Notes under the pieces: model-generated
The model's database searches: none
The model's input: only the letters and a program-made list of their open reading frames with translations
What the model was told of the DNA's origin: nothing
NCBI RefSeq assembly: GCF_030463565.1
Contig: NC_134649.1
Coordinates: forward strand, 32,699,044 to 32,763,043
From: Pelecanus crispus
Taxonomy: Eukaryota > Chordata > Aves > Pelecaniformes > Pelecanidae
Direction: 5' to 3'
Length of the DNA: 64,000 nucleotides
Position numbers and translations under genes: made by a program
Shown here: positions 4,859-30,561 of the stretch, piece after piece
How positions within the stretch are numbered: position 1 is the first letter of the stretch
Layout of the letters: each line of letters starts with the position of its first letter

Positions 4859-30561
<25,703 letters not shown>

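Follow-up and report, generated by a model that had tools for sequence, protein, structure and literature searches.

A GC-donor microexon in CACNA2D2 of Pelecanus crispus, very probably the exon 23 / site C cassette, and an intronic stem-loop shared with the putative CACNA2D1 gene

The question raised by this locus is whether an intron of an alpha2delta gene of Pelecanus crispus contains a very short optional exon with a GC donor, whether this exon corresponds to one already described in mammals, and which elements of the intron could control its splicing. The gene is located in a stretch of 64,000 nucleotides, which is called the window in the following; all positions given without a contig name refer to it, and a slash marks an exon boundary.

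The gene was modelled by hand with 34 exons on the plus strand, from the first recognised exon at 4859 to the stop at 30561. Pfam detected the domains VWA and VGCC_alpha2 in the conceptual protein, a match to dCache_1 stayed under the Pfam cutoff, and residues 4-878 of 886 could be aligned to an alpha2delta-1 structure. Exons 1 and 2 are open together, but a shift of one base separates their frame from that of exon 3, and the joined protein was built without them. Directly 3' of the gene, an open frame on the plus strand (32765-34672) has a DUF1751 (TMEM115-type) domain according to Pfam. TMEM115 is the neighbor of mammalian CACNA2D2, and the gene order in the window agrees with this. An open frame on the minus strand (37594-38967), which has no Pfam match in its unspliced form, contains a peptide that we take to resemble CYB561D2. 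The domain content, the DUF1751 neighbor and a locus distinct from the CACNA2D1-like gene described below support the original prediction that the gene is CACNA2D2. Its orthology to CACNA2D2, as opposed to CACNA2D1, CACNA2D3 or CACNA2D4, was derived from the separate locus and the expected 3' neighbor.

Three further observations concern the gene model. The exon at 8949-9081, which ends with TACTACCCCCG/GTGCGT, is out of frame with the next exon at 9366-9423, and a run of five C points to a one-base difference, which is perhaps due to an assembly error. In the C-terminal region two options were seen by eye, i.e., GAG/GTAAGA after 29471 together with an acceptor before 29652, or a weak GTATCC after 29478 together with 29695. 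The choice affects the model entries 29369-29478 and 29695-29783, and CACNA2D2 may thus have another site of alternative splicing close to its C terminus. Last, the RRR of VRRRPWY is present in this alpha2delta-2, encoded by 9366-9423 together with 11614-11664; in alpha2delta-1, this RRR is reported to be essential for gabapentin binding (PMC9901441).

The optional exon lies on the plus strand at 21235..21255, between model exon 17 (19937..20013), which ends with GTG AAG T/GTAAGT and encodes ...ILQVK, and model exon 19 (23573..23633), which starts with ATTTTGAA and encodes FEYLLP.... Its letters are TACCAAACATCAAAATGAAGG. The acceptor sequence before 21235 is GGATTCACACAG/ (CACAG/), and from 21256 onwards the donor /GCAAGTATTT follows, with GCAAGT at 21256..21261 and GCAAGTATTTTC as the wider downstream flank. 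The exon is in phase 1-1 and exchanges one Y for LPNIKMKD, so that inclusion leads to ...QVK-LPNIKMKD-FEYLLP... and skipping to ...QVK-Y-FEYLLP.... Both joins are open to the normal stop; over model exons 3-34 they amount to 887 codons with the microexon and 880 without it, the stop codon being counted. Just two GT donors are present 3-59 nt from the acceptor, at 25 and 34 nt, and because both lead to a frameshift and a stop, an in-frame product requires the GC donor. The 21-mer occurs a single time in the 1.31-Gb assembly. Coordinates, splice signals and frame of the predicted 21-nt frame-keeping exon with a GC donor were right.

The donor is the sole GC among the 33 donors of the model, the other 32 being GT, a count that leans to GT as the boundaries were picked by eye with GT in mind. 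With GC at positions +1/+2 and a strong remaining consensus (AGG/GCAAGT), it has the donor part of a GC-AG intron of the U2 type. The weight matrices for donors and acceptors were derived from the remaining sites of this gene, a procedure that favors the scores of these remaining sites. Without the +2 base the microexon donor ranked 10th of 33 in a matrix derived from the other 32 donors, and only 5 of the 2459 GC dinucleotides of the gene, itself included, scored as high. The acceptor was the weakest of all 34, with a score of -2.6 versus 3.7 to 15.7 for the others. PMC7242645 describes an association of GC-AG introns with more alternative splicing and puts their share at about 0.8% of the introns of coding genes; the statement that a GC donor is typical of regulated exons is correct only in part. 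The conserved GC-AG introns described there are alike in the GC donor and in the link to alternative splicing, and other cases have been kept from human to chicken and fish. The main text of that study names neither CACNA2D genes nor microexons.

Within the intron of 3559 nt, 21 open candidates of 21 nt are found between an AG and a GT or GC, and it could thus be asked whether the stretch is a chance look-alike and no exon at all. The optional octamer of mammalian alpha2delta-2, LPISKLKD, differs from the LPNIKMKD of the window. Against this octamer the score of the microexon was reached in only one of 1000 dinucleotide-shuffled introns, and among 975 candidates from both strands of the window the microexon alone reached it. 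Against the octamer SKKGKMKD of alpha2delta-1 alone, the microexon did not stand out: its score was reached in 86 of 1000 shuffles and by 12 of the 975 candidates (itself included), and a candidate at 22364 in the same intron scored one point higher. LPNIKMKD is a short basic insert like the other two, while its likeness to SKKGKMKD alone is not significant. The latter result, the number of open candidates and the weak acceptor are what a look-alike would lead one to expect. The alpha2delta-2 comparison, the strong GC donor, and the tract, donor and stem-loop held in common with CACNA2D1 (see below) leave next to no probability for it.

A cassette exon is known at this position. Geisler et al. 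2019 (PMC6445987) describe that exon 23 of mouse Cacna2d2 is alternatively spliced, and that GABA-A receptors of the postsynaptic side are clustered opposite transfected glutamatergic terminals by alpha2delta-2 variants without exon 23 and by no others. A review places exon 23 of alpha2delta-2 at a position equivalent to site C of alpha2delta-1 (PMC9901441). For rat alpha2delta-1, region C is the cassette exon 23 with the sequence SKKGKMK, and variants without it showed a weaker gabapentin binding (Lana et al. 2014, PMC3988960). The exon in the window shares with mouse exon 23 the gene, the nature as an optional insert and the site-C-equivalent position. Structural data are in accordance with this placement. 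Thirteen distinct alpha2delta-1 chain sequences in the PDB were matched, of which 9vlg_A and 8if3_A carry the insert; to these two, all 53 residues of the window peptide, ...KMKD among them, could be aligned with no gap and with 44 bits. Ten chains spanned just 46 residues at the insert, with 24.6-26.6 bits, and one further chain matched partly; for the ten, a gap of 7 residues at the insert was seen in three alignments and was judged from the spans in the others. On this basis, 21235-21255 is very probably an instance of a known exon, the exon 23 / site C cassette microexon of CACNA2D2, and the claim that LPNIKMKD occupies the site of the optional insert of mammalian alpha2delta-2 found support.

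The assembly of the same species (310 contigs, 1.31 Gb) was searched with the conceptual CACNA2D2 protein. Besides the gene itself on contig C7, a second gene was found on contig C1 at 11.83-11.93 Mb, with 39-83% identity per piece, which is taken as CACNA2D1. Weaker matches at 35.6-35.8 Mb of C7 and at 70.4 Mb of C1 are taken as CACNA2D3 and CACNA2D4, respectively. All three names are presumptive and were given by identity and by the chromosome sharing known from birds. The putative CACNA2D1 gene contains a candidate microexon of 15 nt at C1:11908128-11908142, in the intron between the exon end at 11906916 and the exon start at 11908832. Its sequence is ...CTGCTTTCTCTTTCTGATGGATAG/TGGCAATCAAAAAGG/GCAAGTAT, with the donor AAGG/GCAAGTAT, and the upstream exon ends with ...ITQAR(T). 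When spliced, it would yield ...ITQAR-LAIKKD-SETL... in frame. The GC donor is, therefore, common to both site-C candidates. At 15 nt, the candidate is shorter than the exon for the seven residues SKKGKMK in rat CACNA2D1. Because it encodes LAIKKD and not SKKGKMK, the microexon itself is poorly conserved between the paralogues, which counts against the explanation preferred below. In the flanking coding exons of the two genes, 41 of 77 and 32 of 61 nt are identical in an ungapped comparison, i.e., 52-53%.

The two introns were compared by blastn, with 3559 nt of CACNA2D2 and a piece of 1916 nt of CACNA2D1, one exon base included. The best match (41 of 47 nt, E 1.4e-10) was a stem-loop at 21092..21131 on the plus strand, which has the sequence CACAATATTTTTATTCAA-7 nt-TTGAATAAAATATTG, i.e., arms at 21092-21109 and 21117-21131 with a 7-nt loop in between. 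Its counterpart in CACNA2D1 (C1:11908021-11908061) has the same arms and an 8-nt loop. All 33 of the 33 arm positions (18 + 15 nt) are identical between the two genes, while the loops differ. In either gene the stem-loop precedes the microexon, at a distance of 103 nt in CACNA2D2 and 66 nt in CACNA2D1. The second match was collinear with the first and contained the end of the tract, the exon and the donor (E 0.006); ten others had E values of at least 0.24. When 14 kb of CACNA2D1 were compared with the whole window after masking of low complexity (dust), four matches with E of at most 0.1 were obtained, the stem-loop being the top match (1.9e-8). The other three had an E value of 0.062, one of them being a coding exon, and the control with reversed sequence yielded none. 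Without masking, simple T-rich repeats matched equally well, and they did so in the control, too (38 and 50 matches).

In the whole assembly of 1.31 Gb, the pattern TATTTTTATTCAAN{5,9}TTGAATAAAATA was matched exactly at two places and no more, namely at these two stem-loops, and the reversed pattern had no match; the search skips simple repeats. By this genome-wide pattern search, the exact hairpin is absent from CACNA2D3 and CACNA2D4. With a fixed 7-nt loop, no assembly copies with one or two mismatches were found, and the 11 copies with three mismatches, compared with 12 in the reversed control, are noise. The exact pattern was also not found in the collections genome_contigs and viral_contigs, as expected for collections without animals. 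In 30 kb of CACNA2D4 (C1, minus strand) read by eye, an exon like model exon 20 was seen and no site-C exon, the site-C flanking exons could not be placed, and of six words from hairpin, donor and tract one GCTTTCTCT alone was present. In 20 kb of CACNA2D3, one tblastn match over the site-C residues had an E value of 0.41 and was taken as chance, and site C could not be placed. The finding that about 47 nt alone are nearly identical, and the exons are not, could also have been produced by a recent gene conversion or by a mobile element that inserted twice, instead of by old conservation. Such an origin is very improbable in view of the two exact copies as the only ones in the genome, the lack of copies with one or two mismatches at the fixed 7-nt loop, the collinear place in homologous introns and the differing loops.

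The stem-loop was not recognizable from its folding energy. It folds with -11.8 kcal/mol, and z was -4.05 for a hand-picked piece of 50 nt and -3.0 for 61 nt. When the gene was scanned evenly in windows of 60 nt, the best one for the stem ranked only 28th of 1694, and a piece of 231 nt around it folded no better than shuffled sequences (160 of 200 were as good). A recognition by energy alone was, therefore, rejected, and the evidence for the stem-loop is its sequence conservation and not its stability. At gathering score, Rfam contains no family that matched the window intron or the CACNA2D1 intron piece. At E of at most 1, three miRNA-type hits (23222-23290) and one to a bacterial sRNA family (20157-20334) were obtained in the window, and one miRNA-type hit at positions 1661-1780 of the CACNA2D1 piece, downstream of the microexon candidate.

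As the arms are identical, the stem shows no covariation. Arms that are kept letter for letter, together with an ordinary folding energy, would also fit an inverted repeat that has no role as a hairpin in splicing and acts as DNA next to a real microexon, i.e., as a duplicated enhancer or a palindrome to which a protein binds. We regard this as unlikely, since in either gene the repeat precedes the microexon at a short distance, collinear with tract, exon and donor, and since identical arms with a diverged loop have the appearance expected of an RNA stem. The 3' arm holds an AATAAA in both paralogues, which in CACNA2D2 is followed by a GT-rich stretch, as it would be for an intronic poly(A) signal; the element would then govern the formation of a truncated transcript instead of the use of the microexon. 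This is improbable, because the downstream GT-rich part is poorly kept in CACNA2D1, and because neither the 5' arm nor the position beside the microexon would be explained.

As a splicing element, which is the preferred reading, the stem-loop would act near an acceptor region that stands out within the gene. The zone free of AG before the microexon (21067..21232) has a length of 166 nt and is the longest of the 34 acceptors; the second longest, 117 nt, precedes the exon at 23573, and the others have 12-58 nt. The exon at 23573 also has a CU-rich stretch at its acceptor, and it may compete with the microexon. In CACNA2D1 the AG-free zone of the microexon candidate has 59 nt; the AG after which it begins, at 11908065, closely follows the stem. 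In the last 190 nt before the microexon of the window, strict yUnAy words have their A at 21048, which is 5' of the AG-free zone, at 21104, and at 21229, which is too close. The A at 21104 is inside the 5' arm and 131 nt away from the microexon. In CACNA2D1, such words are found at the same position of the arm (95 nt, outside the AG-free zone), at 45 nt (inside), at 118 nt and at 8 nt. From these positions, the likely branch region would be covered by the stem in CACNA2D2, and would follow shortly after the stem in CACNA2D1. The two genes might use a common branch point within the arm, but this idea is weak, as the motif is loose and CACNA2D1, in which the candidate at -45 fits better, does not favor it.

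Between stem-loop and exon, the end of the pyrimidine tract with a UGC/UCUCU motif, TGCTTTCTCTCTATGGTGGAT, is present at 21206..21226 on the plus strand and is matched by TGCTTTCTCTTTCTGATGGAT in CACNA2D1. A UGC near a weak acceptor is the rule for microexons of the Srrm4 type. The exon in the window has the UGC at 21206, a size of 21 nt (the limit being about 27-30 nt), a preserved frame and the weakest acceptor of the gene. In these features it resembles the small, frame-keeping neuronal cassettes regulated by Srrm3/Srrm4, which are the subject of PMC12626424 and PMC7821500. In a term search, the word CACNA2D did not occur in the main text of either study, nor is it contained in the main text of PMC8052449, a survey of conserved base pairings. 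In the open-access literature, as far as its text was covered by the search, neither a GC donor nor a hairpin within an intron was mentioned for CACNA2D1/2, and the cited passages do not state how the splicing of exon 23 / site C is controlled. Rbfox sites (GCATG) are absent from 20901-21600.

Taken together, the most probable explanation, to which we assign a probability of roughly 0.7, is an old cassette microexon that is spliced by the major spliceosome with a GC donor, and the control module of which, i.e., stem-loop, pyrimidine tract and GC donor, was passed on to both paralogues. The observations behind it come from the sequence of one genome: splice signals, frame, position, weak acceptor, long AG-free zone, shared GC donor and identical arms. 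The major spliceosome would splice the microexon through the GC donor with its good remaining consensus. Weak acceptor, distant branch region and GC donor would make it easy to skip, and because both of its sites are sub-optimal, skipping is presumably frequent. A tissue-specific activator at the pyrimidine/UGC tract would lead to inclusion in some cells, probably in neurons, and the stem-loop may tune inclusion, either by modulating the access to the branch region or by binding a factor. The GC donor shared by the paralogues and the conserved intronic stem-loop are, at the level of sequence comparison, stronger evidence for the exon than that given with the original prediction. The candidate of 15 nt with a GC donor in the putative CACNA2D1 gene and the stem-loop with identical arms in both paralogues are new.

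A more far-reaching idea is that a single ancestral RNA switch governs the site-C microexons in both genes, CACNA2D1 and CACNA2D2. The switch would consist of the GC donor and the stem-loop with arms of 18 and 15 nt, which lies in the branch-site region or shortly 5' of it, and it would have been kept since the two genes split, presumably in the early vertebrate genome duplications. A dedicated factor may then recognize the stem and in this way co-regulate the two channel subunits. We put this forward tentatively, with the odds somewhat against it. The identity of 33 of 33 arm bases, compared with that of the flanking exons, makes the stem-loop a clear candidate control element for the splicing of exon 23 / site C. 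According to the published work, which for the consequence at the protein level is limited to rodents, this site alters the gabapentin affinity of alpha2delta-1 and switches the trans-synaptic role of alpha2delta-2. If the idea is true, the co-regulating factor would thereby set gabapentin affinity and synapse wiring.
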